Shown here: in pieces, positions 14,741-39,213 of the stretch
Position numbering within the stretch: position 1 is the stretch's first letter
How the letters are laid out: each line of letters begins with the position of its first letter
Source of the DNA: Mammaliicoccus sp. Dog046
Lineage (GTDB): Bacteria; Bacillota; Bacilli; Staphylococcales; Staphylococcaceae
Direction: 5' to 3'
NCBI RefSeq assembly: GCF_034039665.1
Contig: NZ_CP120131.1
Span: 1,950,499-2,014,498, forward strand
Length of the DNA stretch: 64,000 nt
Translations under genes and position numbers: made by a program
Notes under the pieces: model-generated
Seen by the model: only the letters and a program-made list of their open reading frames with translations
The model's database searches: none
What the model was told of the DNA's origin: nothing

Positions 14741-14784
14741 TTTAATTGAGGTTATTTTTATGAATGATTGAGTTGTGTATGTAC

Positions 14785-15178
14785 GTAAGTGTCAGAATTC
14801 CGGATTGTGATCGTTAGAATGCTGTAATTGCCAGAATTCCGGATTGTGATCGTTAGAATGCTGTAACGGACATTATTCCGAATTCTGTCCCTTAGAACCG
14901 TGTAACGGACACTTTTCCGAATTATGTCCCTTAGAATCGTGTAAGGGACATTATTCTGAATTATGTCCCTTAGAATCGTGTAACGGACATTATTCCGAAT
15001 TATGTCCCTTAGAATCGTGTAACGGACATTATTCCGAATTATGTCCCTTAGAACCGTGTAACGGACACTTTTCTGAATTCTGTCCCTTAGAACTGTGTAA
15101 CGGACACTTTTCCGAATTATGTCCCTTAGAACTGTGTAACGGACACTTTTCCGAATTATGTCCCTTAGAATCGCAGTA
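14785..15178. repeat. Tandem array of 39-bp palindromic units
   Basis: Eight units have GGACA at 14868, 14907, 14946, 14985, 15024, 15063, 15102 and 15141, exactly 39 bp apart. Two diverged units at the 5' end repeat CAGAATTCCGGATTG at 14793 and 14832, also 39 bp apart. Each unit holds a near-perfect 23-bp palindrome with GGACAT and ATGTCC arms. The array fills the gap between the convergent DUF3055 gene and yutD. Because 39 is divisible by three it stays open as a repetitive minus-strand frame, which I do not regard as a gene. Confidence 0.9.
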
Positions 15179-15183
15179 TAGAA

Positions 15184-15222
15184 AAAAGAGGCTGGACACA
15201 ATGTTATGTCTCAGCCTCTTTT
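15184..15222 (-). terminator. Terminator of yutD
   Basis: AAAGAGGCTG / CAGCCTCTTT stem with T-tract on the minus strand, immediately after the yutD stop. Confidence 0.8.
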
Positions 15223-19910: not shown

Positions 19911-20270
19911 TTATTTACTTACTTTTCTTTCAAATTCTTTTTTAGTTATATATTCAATAAAAAAAACATACTTACCTTTATGTTCAATTTTCACAAATTG
20001 ACCTGATGGGTCATGTCCTTTAAAGGAAAGTTTATATCGATTTTTATTTCCTTCTTCATCATAAGACGTTATATTTTTATAATCTTGTATTTCTATTATT
20101 TCTTCTCTAGTCTTTGATTCTGCATCTTTATAAAATGGTACTTCTGCATAACTCCATTGCTTCTCAACTAACGGATTTACCCTATCTAAATATGGTTCTA
20201 AGTATCTCAGCACGAATAATGAAAAGACTGCAAAAACTATGATTATAAAACTATATATCCATTTTTTCAT
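19911..20270 (-). CDS. YxeA-like (DUF1093) secreted or membrane-anchored protein
   Basis: A 119-residue protein with an N-terminal hydrophobic segment (WIYSFIIIVFAVFSLFVL) that anchors or exports it. The remainder is a small beta-rich domain ending in HKGKYVFFIEYITKKEFE, the pattern of the DUF1093/YxeA family. A GTG nine bases upstream is an alternative start. It is monocistronic with a terminator on each side, between the yun genes and the phage-like lysis cassette. Function is unknown. Confidence 0.65.
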   Translation of the reverse strand: MKKWIYSFIIIVFAVFSLFVLRYLEPYLDRVNPLVEKQWSYAEVPFYKDAESKTREEIIEIQDYKNITSYDEEGNKNRYKLSFKGHDPSGQFVKIEHKGKYVFFIEYITKKEFERKVSK

Positions 20271-20367
20271 CCCAATCACTTCTTCCCTTTATTTTAAGTT
20301 AGCTTAATTATAATATATTCATTTCATAATATTCTGTCAATATGTTTTTTGTAATTAATTTACAACA

Positions 20368-20406
20368 TAAAACCCGCACACCTTATTTGTCGGTGTGCGG
20401 GTTTTA
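20368..20406. terminator. Strong terminator downstream of the endolysin gene
   Basis: AAACCCGCACACC / GGTGTGCGGGTTT, a 13-bp GC-rich perfect stem with a 9-base loop. A-rich and T-rich flanks suggest it can work in both directions. It marks the left edge of the lysis cassette. Confidence 0.85.
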
Positions 20407-20480
20407 TGTTATATTTACATTACTATATAGATGTCTTACTTAAACATTTAAATGATGGCCGTCATTGTAATATGTTTTTG

Positions 20481-20510
20481 TTAAGGCATTTTTTTATTGT
20501 TTTCATTCAT
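20481..20510 (-). other. Nine-codon mini-ORF after the endolysin, with A7 run
   Basis: An ATG at 20510 has AAAGGAG at ideal spacing and reads MNENNKKMP before a stop. The codons run through seven consecutive A. A one-base slip there would give a 23-residue peptide ending NALTKTYYNDGHHLNV (to 20440). Whether either product is made is unknown. Confidence 0.25.
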
Positions 20511-20523
20511 TTCAACTGCTCCT

Positions 20524-21777
20524 TTATTTTAATTTCAACACTTGTCCTACGTAAATGACGTCTGATTTTAGTCCGTTTAAACTTTTTAATGTAGCTACGG
20601 ATACGCCTGTTTTTTGACTAATTCCCCATAATGTATCTCCTGATACTACTGTATACGTCGTTGGTGTACTTCCAATTGGTGCGCCATGAATGGCTTCTGC
20701 TAGTGATTTTGTATAGTTATTTAAATTACTTTTAATTGCGTTCATGTCTTTAGTTGAAGTAATGAATCCTAATTCTACAAGTCTATAATTGATATATTCT
20801 GCTTTGGCAACATTACAATGTAATAGATCACTTCTTTGTGTAATGCCACGAATTGTTCCTACATATTTCTGAATAGATTGTTGTAATCCATTATCAATAT
20901 AATCTGGTGCTAATCCACTTGGAATAATCACATGTCCGCCTGATGCTGTTGGTCCTGCTGAATCTAAATGAAATTCAACAACTATTTCATATCCTTGTGA
21001 TTTAACCCAATATAATCCATAGTCTGTCTTGTTCCCAACTTGTTCTCCATATGCTGTATCTTGATACATATCTTGGTCTTTTCCATAAACTGCTACTGTA
21101 TTGCCTGCTTGTTTAAGATAATTGGCTACACGGTCTACAATATTTGCTCTAATAAAATCTCTTTCATTTGTTCCATTTCCTACTGCTCCTGGATCATTAT
21201 ATCCATGTCCTGCTACGATCATAATTTTTCTACTCATTTTAACTACTCCTTTATTATTTGATTGGTCTAATTTTTGATTTAAATTTGTAATATCATATTT
21301 TTCTATTGGCATCCCACTACATACTCTCGTGACTTCATTAGTAATGTCTTCGCCTTTTCTTCTTAATTGGATATGCAAGTGGGCGCTCATTGGATTTCCT
21401 GCATAATTACTATTTCCTTGCAGTCCGATGATATCTCCTTGATTGACTTTATCACCTTTCGAAAATTTCAAAATATCTCTTTGCATATGTCCATAAATCC
21501 AGTCATTACCGTTGCTATCTCGAATTTCCATTGTCCCACCGAAATTCCCAAATGGTTCACTGAGTATGACTGTTCCACTTGTTACTGCAGGTATTTGATC
21601 CGTCTTGTTGTTAAATACATCAAATGCTCTATGGTATCCACTGCAATATGCATCATAATTGATACCACCTTCAATATAATTTCTATATCCGTACTTATCG
21701 GGATACCCCTTATATGTTCTTGGATCAGAGGAAATCTCCCAACCTTTCTTTGTTAAGTAATCAATTGCTGTTAACAT
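20524..21777 (-). CDS. Phage-type endolysin: M23 peptidase + amidase_3 + LysM
   Basis: A 417-residue modular cell wall hydrolase. Residues about 45-150 are an M23 glycyl-glycine/lysostaphin-like peptidase with HRAFDVFN and the H-x-H of SAHLHIQL. Residues about 185-345 are an N-acetylmuramoyl-L-alanine amidase_3 domain (IMIVAGHGYNDPGAVG, EFHLDSAGP, LVELGFITS). The C-terminal 45 residues are one LysM repeat (YTVVSGDTLWGISQKTG). There is no signal peptide, so release depends on the holin encoded 19 bp upstream. The ribosome binding site is AAAAGGATG. Two catalytic domains in one lysin are known in staphylococcal phages, though those usually end in SH3b, not LysM. Confidence 0.9.
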   Translation of the reverse strand: MLTAIDYLTKKGWEISSDPRTYKGYPDKYGYRNYIEGGINYDAYCSGYHRAFDVFNNKTDQIPAVTSGTVILSEPFGNFGGTMEIRDSNGNDWIYGHMQRDILKFSKGDKVNQGDIIGLQGNSNYAGNPMSAHLHIQLRRKGEDITNEVTRVCSGMPIEKYDITNLNQKLDQSNNKGVVKMSRKIMIVAGHGYNDPGAVGNGTNERDFIRANIVDRVANYLKQAGNTVAVYGKDQDMYQDTAYGEQVGNKTDYGLYWVKSQGYEIVVEFHLDSAGPTASGGHVIIPSGLAPDYIDNGLQQSIQKYVGTIRGITQRSDLLHCNVAKAEYINYRLVELGFITSTKDMNAIKSNLNNYTKSLAEAIHGAPIGSTPTTYTVVSGDTLWGISQKTGVSVATLKSLNGLKSDVIYVGQVLKLK

Positions 21778-21796
21778 TTAATCATCCTTTTCTTTT

Positions 21797-22117
21797 TTAT
21801 TTTTTTCCTGATTGTTTTAAAAATGTTTCTTGGTCTCTCGATCGACTTGTTAAAATGAAAGTATTTTTCCAAATGCCATATAGTACGAACACTATTGGGA
21901 TACCTGTATTTAATACGTTCATCCACGCGTCTAACTTTTGAGGATTCAACCAATCTATATAAATTCCAGATGCGCTCAATGCTAAATATACTGCACCTAT
22001 AAATCCTCCAATCATAGCTATAAATTGTTTGATCTTATCTGGATTTATTTCGATTCGGTTATCTTCCTCTGAATAATCAAAGTTTACTTTGTCTGATTTG
22101 AAATTCATTTTAACCAT
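21797..22117 (-). CDS. Phage holin
   Basis: A 106-residue protein. A charged N-terminal third is followed by two transmembrane segments (FIAMIGGFIGAVYLALSA and WMNVLNTGIPIVFVLYGIW) and a charged tail ending LKQSGKK. The architecture and the PDKIKQFIAMIGG lead-in resemble holins of the phi-LC3/Phage_holin_1 type. It would permeabilise the membrane and release the endolysin encoded immediately downstream. I chose the ATG at 22117, with AAGGAGG at ideal spacing; three more codons upstream overlap that site. Confidence 0.82.
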   Translation of the reverse strand: MVKMNFKSDKVNFDYSEEDNRIEINPDKIKQFIAMIGGFIGAVYLALSASGIYIDWLNPQKLDAWMNVLNTGIPIVFVLYGIWKNTFILTSRSRDQETFLKQSGKK

Positions 22118-22138
22118 TTCGTTCACCTCCTTGGTTAC

Positions 22139-22167
22139 ACTATAGTATAACTTTTGGTTGACGTCAA
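22139..22167 (-). promoter_or_regulatory. Sigma-A promoter of the holin-endolysin genes
   Basis: On the minus strand: -35 TTGACG (22162-22167), a 17-bp spacer and -10 TATAGT (22139-22144), close to consensus. The predicted start of transcription falls at the Shine-Dalgarno, giving a leader of about 15 bases. A degenerate operator half-site fills the spacer. Confidence 0.7.
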
Positions 22168-22181
22168 TAACTTTGAGTTAT
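22167..22181. promoter_or_regulatory. Repressor operator O2 (perfect 15-bp palindrome)
   Basis: ATAACT-TTG-AGTTAT, abutting the -35 of the holin promoter. A degenerate copy (O1, left arm ATAACT intact) lies at 22147-22161 between -35 and -10. The same arms recur at 22208-22222, so this is very likely the binding site of the adjacent cI-like repressor. Confidence 0.7.
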
Positions 22182-22197
22182 ATTTTTTGTTTTTTTA

Positions 22198-22225
22198 TTG
22201 AAATAATATAACTAATAGTTATAAT
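22198..22225 (+). promoter_or_regulatory. Promoter and operator O3 of the repressor gene
   Basis: -35 TTGAAA (22198-22203), a 16-bp spacer and a perfect -10 TATAAT (22220-22225). The palindrome TATAACTAATAGTTATA (22207-22223) occupies the spacer and touches the -10, predicting negative autoregulation. Confidence 0.7.
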
Positions 22226-22257
22226 TAAGGTATCAATTAATTAAGGAGCGGGAACTT

Positions 22258-22587
22258 ATGGTGTCTGGAAACAAACTCTCAGAGCAAATCAGTTTACTTA
22301 GAACTAAGCAGGGCTGGACGCAACAGAAATTAGCAGATGAATTACAAGTTTCAAAACAATCCATTTCATATTGGGAAACAGGTCGTAAAGCACCAAAGAT
22401 GAAGAAAATCGAAGAAATGGCGCAATTGTTTAATGTAAGTGTAAGTTATTTATTAGATGGGGAAACTAAAACAACGTATAACTCAACCGCAGAAACAATC
22501 GCTGCTCATTTAGATGGAGAATTAACAGAAGCAGAACTCAATAAAGTGCTAGAATATGTTGATTTCTTAAAACATCAAAATAAATAA
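22258..22587 (+). CDS. XRE/cI-like repressor
   Basis: A 109-residue regulator with an N-terminal helix-turn-helix (residues about 6-60: ISLLRTKQGWTQQKLADEL and VSKQSISYWETGRKAPK) and a short C-terminal helical tail. It lacks a LexA-like S24 autoprotease domain, so relief of repression would need another factor. The ImmA-like protease encoded next is the obvious candidate, as in the ImmR/ImmA pair of ICEBs1. AAGGAG lies nine bases before the ATG. It is divergent from the holin and its likely operators cover both promoters. Confidence 0.88.
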   Translation: MVSGNKLSEQISLLRTKQGWTQQKLADELQVSKQSISYWETGRKAPKMKKIEEMAQLFNVSVSYLLDGETKTTYNSTAETIAAHLDGELTEAELNKVLEYVDFLKHQNK

Positions 22588-22619
22588 AGATATCAATAGA
22601 AAATTATGGTGGGGATATA

Positions 22620-23084
22620 TTGAATAGATATGAAAAGACGCTTATCAATAATGAGCACATTATCATTAAAGAAACAAATAACCTTCCTGATCATTTGAAA
22701 GGTCTATACGTTGATGGGTTAATTTTATTGCAGGAAAATTTAACTGACAAAGAAAAACTTGAAGTATTAGGTGAAGAATTAGCACATCACGATATTTCAT
22801 ATGGTAATATCATCGACACAGATGAATTATGGAAATGGAAATTTGAACATAAAGCACGTAGACTTGGTTTTGAAAAAATCATTCCACTACAAAATATCGT
22901 CCAAGCATATCAATCAGGTGTCCACAACAAGTTTGAGCTCAGTAACTATTTAGATGTATCAGAAGGGTATATTGATGAAGCACTTGAACATTACCAACAA
23001 AAATACGGACTAAGTACGTGGCATGAACATTTTTTAATTAAATTCAATCCATTACAAGTATTTGAATACAAAGAAATTAAATAA
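22620..23084 (+). CDS. ImmA/IrrE-like metallopeptidase
   Basis: A 154-residue protein of the phage ImmA type. The zinc-binding helix reads VLGEELAHHDIS, in which the second motif histidine pair is present but the first position of HExxH is Glu-Glu, a variant I recall in many phage ImmA proteins. Downstream WKWKFEHKARRLG supplies another conserved acidic/His region. The gene uses a TTG start after GGTGGGG. It lies 32 bp after the repressor and ends in a strong terminator. It is expected to cleave the repressor on induction; the trigger is unknown. Confidence 0.78.
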   Translation: MNRYEKTLINNEHIIIKETNNLPDHLKGLYVDGLILLQENLTDKEKLEVLGEELAHHDISYGNIIDTDELWKWKFEHKARRLGFEKIIPLQNIVQAYQSGVHNKFELSNYLDVSEGYIDEALEHYQQKYGLSTWHEHFLIKFNPLQVFEYKEIK

Positions 23085-23125
23085 CAGCGTATAAGATTAG
23101 CGAACTACTAATCTTATACGCTGTT
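23083..23125. terminator. Terminator after the ImmA-like gene
   Basis: An 18-bp perfect stem (AACAGCGTATAAGATTAG with its complement) and a 7-base loop, then T-rich. It marks the right edge of the lysis cassette and may also end the convergent dgo operon. Confidence 0.88.
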
Positions 23126-39106: not shown

Positions 39107-39213
39107 TCTCTCATCTCCAAAAGTTAACACTTTCTGTGAATTGGCACCATTTCATTTACATGACGGTTGCCGGGCTTCAAAGGGCACATCCCTCCACCAC
39201 TCTTGATAAGAGT
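39107..39213 (-). ncRNA. SAM-I (S-box) riboswitch aptamer
   Basis: On the minus strand the P1 strand TCTTATC is followed by AAGAGTGGTGGAGGGA, then TGAAGCCCGGCAACC, the S-box hallmark, and closes with GATGAGA pairing to the 5' arm. Binding of S-adenosylmethionine should stabilise the downstream terminator and switch off metNPQ. Confidence 0.95.

Follow-up and report, generated by a model that had tools for sequence, protein, structure and literature searches.

Gene content and conservation in Mammaliicoccus

The chromosome of Mammaliicoccus sp. Dog046, a single contig of 2.57 Mb, carries a compact unit of four genes for a holin, an endolysin, an XRE-type repressor and an ImmA-type protease within the 64-kb stretch analysed here (the window; NZ_CP120131.1, positions 1,950,499 to 2,014,498). 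The holin and endolysin genes are transcribed in one direction and the repressor and protease genes in the other, with the start codons of holin and repressor 140 bases apart (Table 1). A sequence-only reading of this DNA had proposed that two terminators enclose exactly four genes; the four genes and both hairpins are there, but "exactly four" omits a conserved non-coding element in the 3' region of the lysis transcript. As that reading also held, the structural, packaging and integrase genes that mark an intact or inducible prophage are absent beside the unit in the window, as are replication genes. No tail-type bacteriocin genes lie between or beside the four genes there. Another prophage mark is a pair of attachment (att) sites, but no att-like direct repeat in the window was convincing (the relatives were not searched for att sites). 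The only repeat that spans the unit (19772 and 23132, 14 bases) has its copies in the start region of the DUF72 gene and at the end of dgoD, and is most plausibly a coincidence.

All eight Mammaliicoccus genomes compared (that of Dog046 and seven relatives, including G001, M. sciuri; G003, M. lentus; G004, M. stepanovicii; and G005, M. fleurettii) contain the four intact genes in identical order and orientation beside dgoD. The gene on the other side is DUF72 in the seven genomes whose contig extends there, the G005 contig ending just past the endolysin gene, and in the six relatives with a contig long enough this far side holds DUF72, TauE, a metallophosphatase gene and lipA (cut in G001). 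The endolysin is full length in every genome (E < 1e-241; 84-88% identity in the seven relatives), as is the holin, and all 32 gene copies are open with constant lengths of 417, 106, 109 and 154 amino acids (aa), none showing an inactivating change. Such integrity in eight of eight genomes is not attributable to chance. Between 7.9 and 18.7 kb was read per relative, with five gaps of more than 400 bases between mapped window genes: two in G001 are filled by a bacteriocin locus with an ATP-binding cassette (ABC) gene, one in G007 by what we read as an IS3-like transposase, and two (554 and 929 bases) are unread. These two short gaps aside, no phage genes were found beside the unit in the seven relatives, and the mapped host genes leave no room there for tail genes. 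The insertion in G007 (L044:14081-15572), with its IS3-like transposase frames, splits kdgK near the unit.

All four genes are under purifying selection at the level of their core neighbours. Median pairwise ratios of nonsynonymous to synonymous change (dN/dS, Nei-Gojobori), which are rough because dS is near 1, are 0.077 for the endolysin, 0.080 for the holin, 0.062 for the repressor and 0.055 for the protease. The neighbours give 0.025 (lipA), 0.041 (dgoD), 0.048 (sdr), 0.053 (DUF72), 0.068 (tauE), 0.084 (2-keto-3-deoxy-6-phosphogluconate aldolase), 0.086 (metallophosphatase), 0.102 (ROK), 0.124 (kdgK) and 0.378 (yxeA). Thus, the earlier suggestion of a domesticated lysis module gains from the constant site, the intact copies and the selection on every gene. 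Trees of the unit and of its neighbours share the pairs G001-G007 (100 and 100) and G002-G005 (98 and 66), with weak deeper branches, and vertical descent from before the split of the genus is the simplest reading.

Table 1. Features predicted at the four-gene unit (20524-23084 as a whole); positions are those of the window
Feature	Position	Strand	Basis or remark
Endolysin, 417 aa	20524-21777	-	M23, Amidase_3 and LysM domain matches
Holin, 106 aa, SPP1 type	21797-22117	-	probable start ATG at 22117 after AAGGAGG, as in seven relatives
XRE repressor, 109 aa	22258-22587	+	helix-turn-helix at 13-65; tail with TIAAHLDG, predicted cleavage between A83 and H84
ImmA/MpaR-type protease, 154 aa	22620-23084	+	TTG start; EELAHH motif
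Internal ribosome-binding site and start in endolysin	21235-21252	-	codon 181; would yield a 237-aa amidase-LysM product
Predicted holin-endolysin promoter, TTGACG-17-TATAGT	22139-22167	-	consensus match only; both hexamers identical in 8/8 genomes
Predicted repressor promoter, TTGAAA-16-TATAAT	22198-22225	+	consensus match only
Candidate operator O1 (degenerate)	22146-22162		within holin promoter, between its -10 and -35
Candidate operator O2, AATAACTTTGAGTTATA	22166-22182		abuts holin -35
Candidate operator O3, TATAACTAATAGTTATA	22207-22223		overlies repressor -10
Terminator-like hairpin, right end, bidirectional	23083-23125	both	terminator scan
Terminator-like hairpin, left end	20364-20410		perfect 19-bp stem, 9-nt loop
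Conserved non-coding element, 3' region of lysis transcript	20430-20489	-	core AATGACGGCCATCATT at 20451-20466

Regulatory pair, promoter region and lysis proteins

The repressor matches HTH_3, is short and has no cleavage domain of its own, and an M78 protease gene lies directly 3' of it. This is the ImmR/ImmA-type arrangement that had been likened to ICEBs1, and the likeness stands, the helix-turn-helix (HTH) domain matching the solved ICEBs1 regulator domain (7t8i, E 2.3e-5, not the top-ranked match), but the pair of the Listeria monocin or A118 type is closer. More specifically, the tail TIAAHLDG is present in the repressors of all eight genomes, and in excerpts of PMC6872733 MpaR of Listeria is described as cleaving repressors between TIAA and HID. 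The earlier derepression reading is strengthened by this match of both the TIAAHLD tail and the protease motif EExxH to a pair for which others have demonstrated cleavage (excerpts of PMC6872733).

The protease matches Peptidase_M78 at 25.3 bits (cut-off 22) and a PHROG metallo-protease at E 1.6e-34, and its residues E52, E53, H56 and E76 are kept in all eight genomes and invariant across a 14-row alignment. The idea of a degenerate enzyme, in which EExxH would be a broken HExxH, was rejected because EExxH is the family rule in that alignment and the active form in MpaR, whose action is abolished by H54A in EELMH (PMC6872733, in part). A structure model of the protease (predicted local distance difference test 90.8) has CapP, a Mycobacterium regulator, IrrE and PprI as its top folds; no solved relative was found by sequence.

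The divergent promoter region (22118-22257) is invariant in 99 of 142 alignment columns across the eight genomes, with a mean identity of 88% as against 61-73% at third codon positions of five genes. Because promoter-like sites in the scanned region are no commoner than in shuffled sequence (23 versus 27.7), it is this conservation that carries the argument for the promoters. Palindromes of the form ATAACYNNNRGTTAT are present at both predicted promoters, and three dyads (O1-O3) lie in the back-to-back region, where the repressor presumably binds. The strict palindrome WATAACYNNNRGTTATW, which was derived from the unit itself, occurs there twice in each genome and at 3 other places overall (19 in total; 12 for the reversed control). 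With only these three outside sites in eight genomes the repressor looks dedicated, and it probably serves only this unit and its own gene. A wider regulon was dropped as a candidate on the same count, a stricter-centred, flankless form of the palindrome having also been tried. The best repressor match outside the unit, among the matches listed for 108 family genomes, is 51% identical.

The endolysin had been described as having two domains; two catalytic domains are indeed present, Peptidase_M23 (48-145) and Amidase_3 (185-363), with a LysM domain (375-416) in addition. Residues H49, D53, H133 and H135 of the former and H191, E205, H270 and E335 of the latter, which we take to be the catalytic motifs, are identical in all eight genomes. 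An internal AAAGGAG with a start codon, first noticed in a repeat search as a repeat of a start-like region, is likewise kept in every genome (ATG in seven, TTG in one). Initiation there would yield a free amidase-LysM protein, and a comparable feature has reportedly been described for the lysin of phage 2638A. Database endolysins P0001-P0023 are all of 417 aa and 85-95% identity, many of them named M. sciuri.

The holin matches Holin_SPP1 (27.1 bits, cut-off 27) and a PHROG holin (E 1.1e-7); it has two hydrophobic stretches and adjoins an endolysin with kept residues, as in phage lysis cassettes. Its N-terminus carries about 24 additional residues without counterpart in related prophage holins, the start codons of two of the latter being our choice in the alignment, and the 19 holin matches outside the unit with E < 1e-20 all start at query residues 15-29. 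The holin begins MVKM in all eight genomes. The gene may have a dual start, although the second ATG is poorly spaced from the ribosome site. Clusters of 106-aa holins are seen in 33 and 43 contigs of the protein database, where proteins of the unit (P0130, P0134, P0143, P0127) bear misleading names, the holin in some entries that of a "PTS mannose transporter subunit IID" and the protease that of a "toxin".

Phage relatives, flanking elements and probable origin

Every component of the unit has relatives among phages. A holin match is found in 24 of 108 family genomes, the eight Mammaliicoccus genomes included, and the best one outside the unit lies in a prophage of G002. By our pairing, among the matches listed, at least eight family genomes (G002, G006, G018, G068, G069, G088, G121 and G126) have a holin match and, no more than 50 kb away on the same contig, a repressor match; in all eight the two genes point apart as in the unit, but are 32-47 kb distant rather than 140 bases. 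Other holin-bearing genomes, for example G118, have no repressor match so near among the matches listed. Within or next to this gap, the G002 and G006 prophages have reading frames that look like head, tail, replication and integrase genes, as judged without family searches. In phage CNPH82 the integrase gene is flanked on one side by endolysin, holin and tail genes, while the other side reads integrase, a small gene, ImmA, repressor and a divergent cro. A prophage would be opened between integrase and endolysin, and in that form the order is endolysin-holin-tail through to cro and then repressor-ImmA-integrase; a deletion from cro to the gene preceding the holin would give the arrangement seen here. 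Thus, a temperate siphophage of this gene order probably lost everything between cI and the holin, together with its integrase.

In its amidase part the unit is closest to CNPH82-like and large Mammaliicoccus phages. The M23 part and the holin, taken together, match Staphylococcus pseudintermedius phages and 2638A at 67-68% DNA identity, and within the phage set repressor matches from outside the genus reach 38-40% identity at most. The closest phages carry other HTH domains, and the ATAAC palindrome was not seen in the phage or prophage loci tested, so that no single parent was found and the parts look mosaic. The same architecture was not seen among 24 viral loci except in L085, the only one with an endolysin or holin match near ImmA, a search in which proteins of the unit served as queries and distant lysis genes could escape. 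A scan of genome contigs returned nine loci (four Mammaliicoccus, one Macrococcus and four Staphylococcus, the last with the M23 part only), and seven records of the plasmid collection hold only endolysin or endolysin-holin parts. The Macrococcus carouselicus endolysin was set aside as a similar unit, as it lies beside likely tail and recombinase genes and hence, in our reading, in a prophage.

The conserved element beyond the endolysin gene is invariant in 38 of 62 columns, with a mean identity of 84% as compared with 57% and 72% in its flanks, and its 16-base, nearly palindromic core is present at the unit in all eight genomes with one other near match across all of them. Rfam gave 35 matches up to E 1, none at gathering score, and the 19 phage records matched are all weak (E >= 1). 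IMG/VR matches to the core were rejected in 28 of 29 cases, the flanking letters being unrelated, and the remaining one is the unit itself in L159 (the same record as L085). Support for base pairing is weak: one of 12 pairs covaries, a count no better than that of shuffles (409/500), whereas for the covariation score only 7 of 500 shuffles do as well. A small peptide encoded after the endolysin was also rejected, the frame being broken (by eye) in three of eight genomes while the bases persist.

On this side of the unit the window has a YxeA-family gene (TIGR01655, above cut-off), DUF72 and TauE, and on the other the enolase-superfamily gene dgoD. A hairpin 3' of immA and another at the left end were present in each of the eight genomes folded, with differing sequences; that at the left end was found by inverted-repeat search and folding, as the terminator scan covered loops of up to 8 only. 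Directly downstream of the endolysin gene, G001 has a lactococcin-972 gene, a DUF1430-like gene (below cut-off), yxeA and an ABC ATPase gene (L038:10383-13726). The first two of these also appear in L085:1-2338, an IMG/VR sequence 98% identical to G001 over 11.1 kb. The lactococcin 972 family is present in one of the eight genomes, plus L085, and a yxeA homologue occupies the site in six of the seven genomes where it is visible. In the window the counterpart of this M. sciuri site is only the fast-evolving yxeA homologue (19911-20279). L085 and L159 belong to IMGVR_UViG_2826141081_000002, a 66-kb viral contig under which the unit and a sugar operon are catalogued; the stretch read looks like host chromosome. 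Elsewhere the window contains an S-adenosylmethionine riboswitch (39108-39212, minus strand; Rfam RF00162, 84 bits), a repetitive stretch between two genes (14758-15201, minus strand) whose translated units resemble repeated LRDIIRKSVRYT, and no tRNA genes.

A predicted lysis switch, its alternatives and known systems

The unit is likely phage-derived and, judged from its sequence, its most probable function is that of a self-contained, inducible switch for cell lysis, a reading that we hold with fairly good confidence. In the resting cell the repressor would occupy the palindromes and shut both the holin-endolysin promoter and its own. Stress, for which DNA damage is the best guess by analogy with the related MpaR, ImmA and PprI, would activate the protease, which would then sever the repressor tail by cleavage between A83 and H84. 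Firing of the holin promoter would follow directly, without early or late phage genes; the holin would open the membrane and the endolysin would cut the wall with its two enzyme domains. The benefit may lie in release of contents by a sacrificed fraction of cells, in suicide under phage attack or damage, or in coordination of resident prophages.

A different explanation is that the unit is kept mainly for its protease, a host-encoded anti-repressor that triggers protease-less prophages while the lysis genes ride along or add synchrony. The prophage repressors of G002 and G006 (L079:13108-13452 and L082:1947-2282) end in TTIAAHLDGE, the adjacent frames are not proteases, and the G002 prophage tail finds 11 places in the eight genomes: eight units, two prophages and one short frame in G002. 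Listeria phi10403S, of the same layout, depends on MpaR (PMC6872733, in part), and by this precedent the ImmA of the unit is predicted to fire both prophages; in G006 it is the sole M78 match of the genome. However, such a prophage was seen in two genomes, as against eight that keep the unit, and the constraint on the lysis genes is similar to that on the two regulatory genes. In addition, a further ImmA of this type lies next to a repressor match in G007, and one other M78 protein (a 393-aa frame) is encoded elsewhere in G002. We regard retention mainly for the protease as a possible but somewhat unlikely explanation. A recent or decaying prophage remnant that happened to keep its regulation and lysis genes is extremely unlikely: its parts do all have phage relatives, but the single site in eight genomes, synonymous change near saturation and constraint on genes, promoter region and 3' element do not suit decay. 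The earlier alternative of a prophage remnant is therefore apt for the origin of the unit but not for its present state.

Alternatively, the unit may be an anti-phage or damage-triggered suicide device comparable to CapH-CapP, in which single-stranded DNA or an incoming phage would be sensed by ImmA and the cell lysed before phage is released. The fold shared with CapP invites this comparison but does not show function; the repressor matches 27 profiles, among which capH is not the top one, and endolysin, holin and protease match no PADLOC model. We consider this explanation doubtful. A device for releasing the neighbouring bacteriocin, in the manner of type 10 secretion, appears very unlikely. 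The lactococcin-972 locus adjoining the endolysin gene in G001, begun in L085, and the yxeA homologues at that place in other genomes would fit it, but the family is confined to one of the eight genomes, and the G001 gene, which starts with a signal-peptide-like stretch and lies behind a hairpin and promoter-like sequence (by eye), should not need lysis for its export.

Several observations weigh against the inducible lysis switch that we prefer. The holin barely exceeds its Pfam cut-off, and the best Foldseek match to the protease model has E 0.0029, short of 0.001. There are also shorter database entries for the holin (P0141, 103 aa; P0142, 82 aa; P0143, 72 aa) and for the protease (103 and 100 aa); P0143 apparently derives from the G004 contig, where the holin reads as 106 aa, and among odd protease entries P0125 has a different end and P0126 and P0127 are short, the latter marked partial. 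Mean dS is 0.74-1.62, which makes the dN/dS values rough, and one branch differs between the trees, G003+G004 (86) as opposed to G004+G006 (92-97). The synteny represents one genome per species plus one IMG/VR record nearly identical to G001, itself close kin to G007. Finally, the nearest phages differ in their HTH domains, and the palindrome is absent from all five phage or prophage loci tested.

Where bacterial lysis is programmed, it usually comes with a complete prophage, a tailocin or a toxin, which makes any benefit of the lysis itself hard to isolate. A switch with lysis alone, kept across a genus, would be a clean and small system in which to ask why genes that likely kill are retained, how much lysis is tolerated, and whether a protease kept by the host governs its prophages, as in Listeria. 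It is conceivable, although we place this at somewhat less than an even chance, that the core genome contains a complete circuit for programmed self-lysis without cargo, smaller than any other of its kind that derives from a phage, whose protease also fires protease-less prophages and thus provides one switch for cell and prophages. No publication on this Mammaliicoccus unit was recognised in open PubMed Central text.

Among known systems, the CapH-CapP regulators of the cyclic-oligonucleotide-based antiphage signalling system (CBASS) also combine a repressor with an ImmA-like protease, and CapP is the top-ranked fold match of the protease. CapH-CapP controls a nucleotide-signalling defence operon rather than a holin and endolysin, which are the genes presumably controlled here. 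ICEBs1 shares a short HTH repressor (ImmR) beside a separate M78 protease (ImmA), but its ImmA has HExxH and not EExxH, and its output is a conjugative element. An ImmA of 49-50% identity accompanies a repressor with the tail AAHLEG in Rockefellervirus CNPH82 and Mammaliicoccus phage phi6223; unlike the unit these are complete temperate phages with another HTH and no ATAAC palindrome in the tested stretches, and the CNPH82 holin is dissimilar. In excerpts of PMC5589764, PMC8966010 and PMC9600169, the lysis enzymes of vesicle-forming prophages of B. subtilis, L. lactis and L. casei likewise act within a population, but they are prophage-encoded and not a stand-alone set of four genes. The type 10 secretion and Yersinia entomophaga lysis cassettes, as portrayed in parts of PMC10847048 and PMC10101115, resemble the unit in a host-kept holin and endolysin by which a specialised cell fraction releases its contents; they differ in having identified toxin cargo and other regulators, no cargo being linked to the Mammaliicoccus unit.

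The closest known system is the Listeria monocin. As excerpts of PMC6872733 present it, this is a chromosomal phage relic in nearly the whole genus with a repressor and separate EExxH metalloprotease, divergent promoters, a TIAAH cleavage motif and a holin and endolysin in the locus, its early excision and replication genes missing; it also retains lmaD/lmaC and the genes of a tail-like bacteriocin, and comprises as many as 17 genes. Lacking tail genes, the Mammaliicoccus unit is not itself a monocin: its holin directly follows the switch promoter and no cargo is encoded. The unit thus appears to be a cargo-free lysis switch fixed in the genus, and as such would be new relative to the monocin switch of Listeria.

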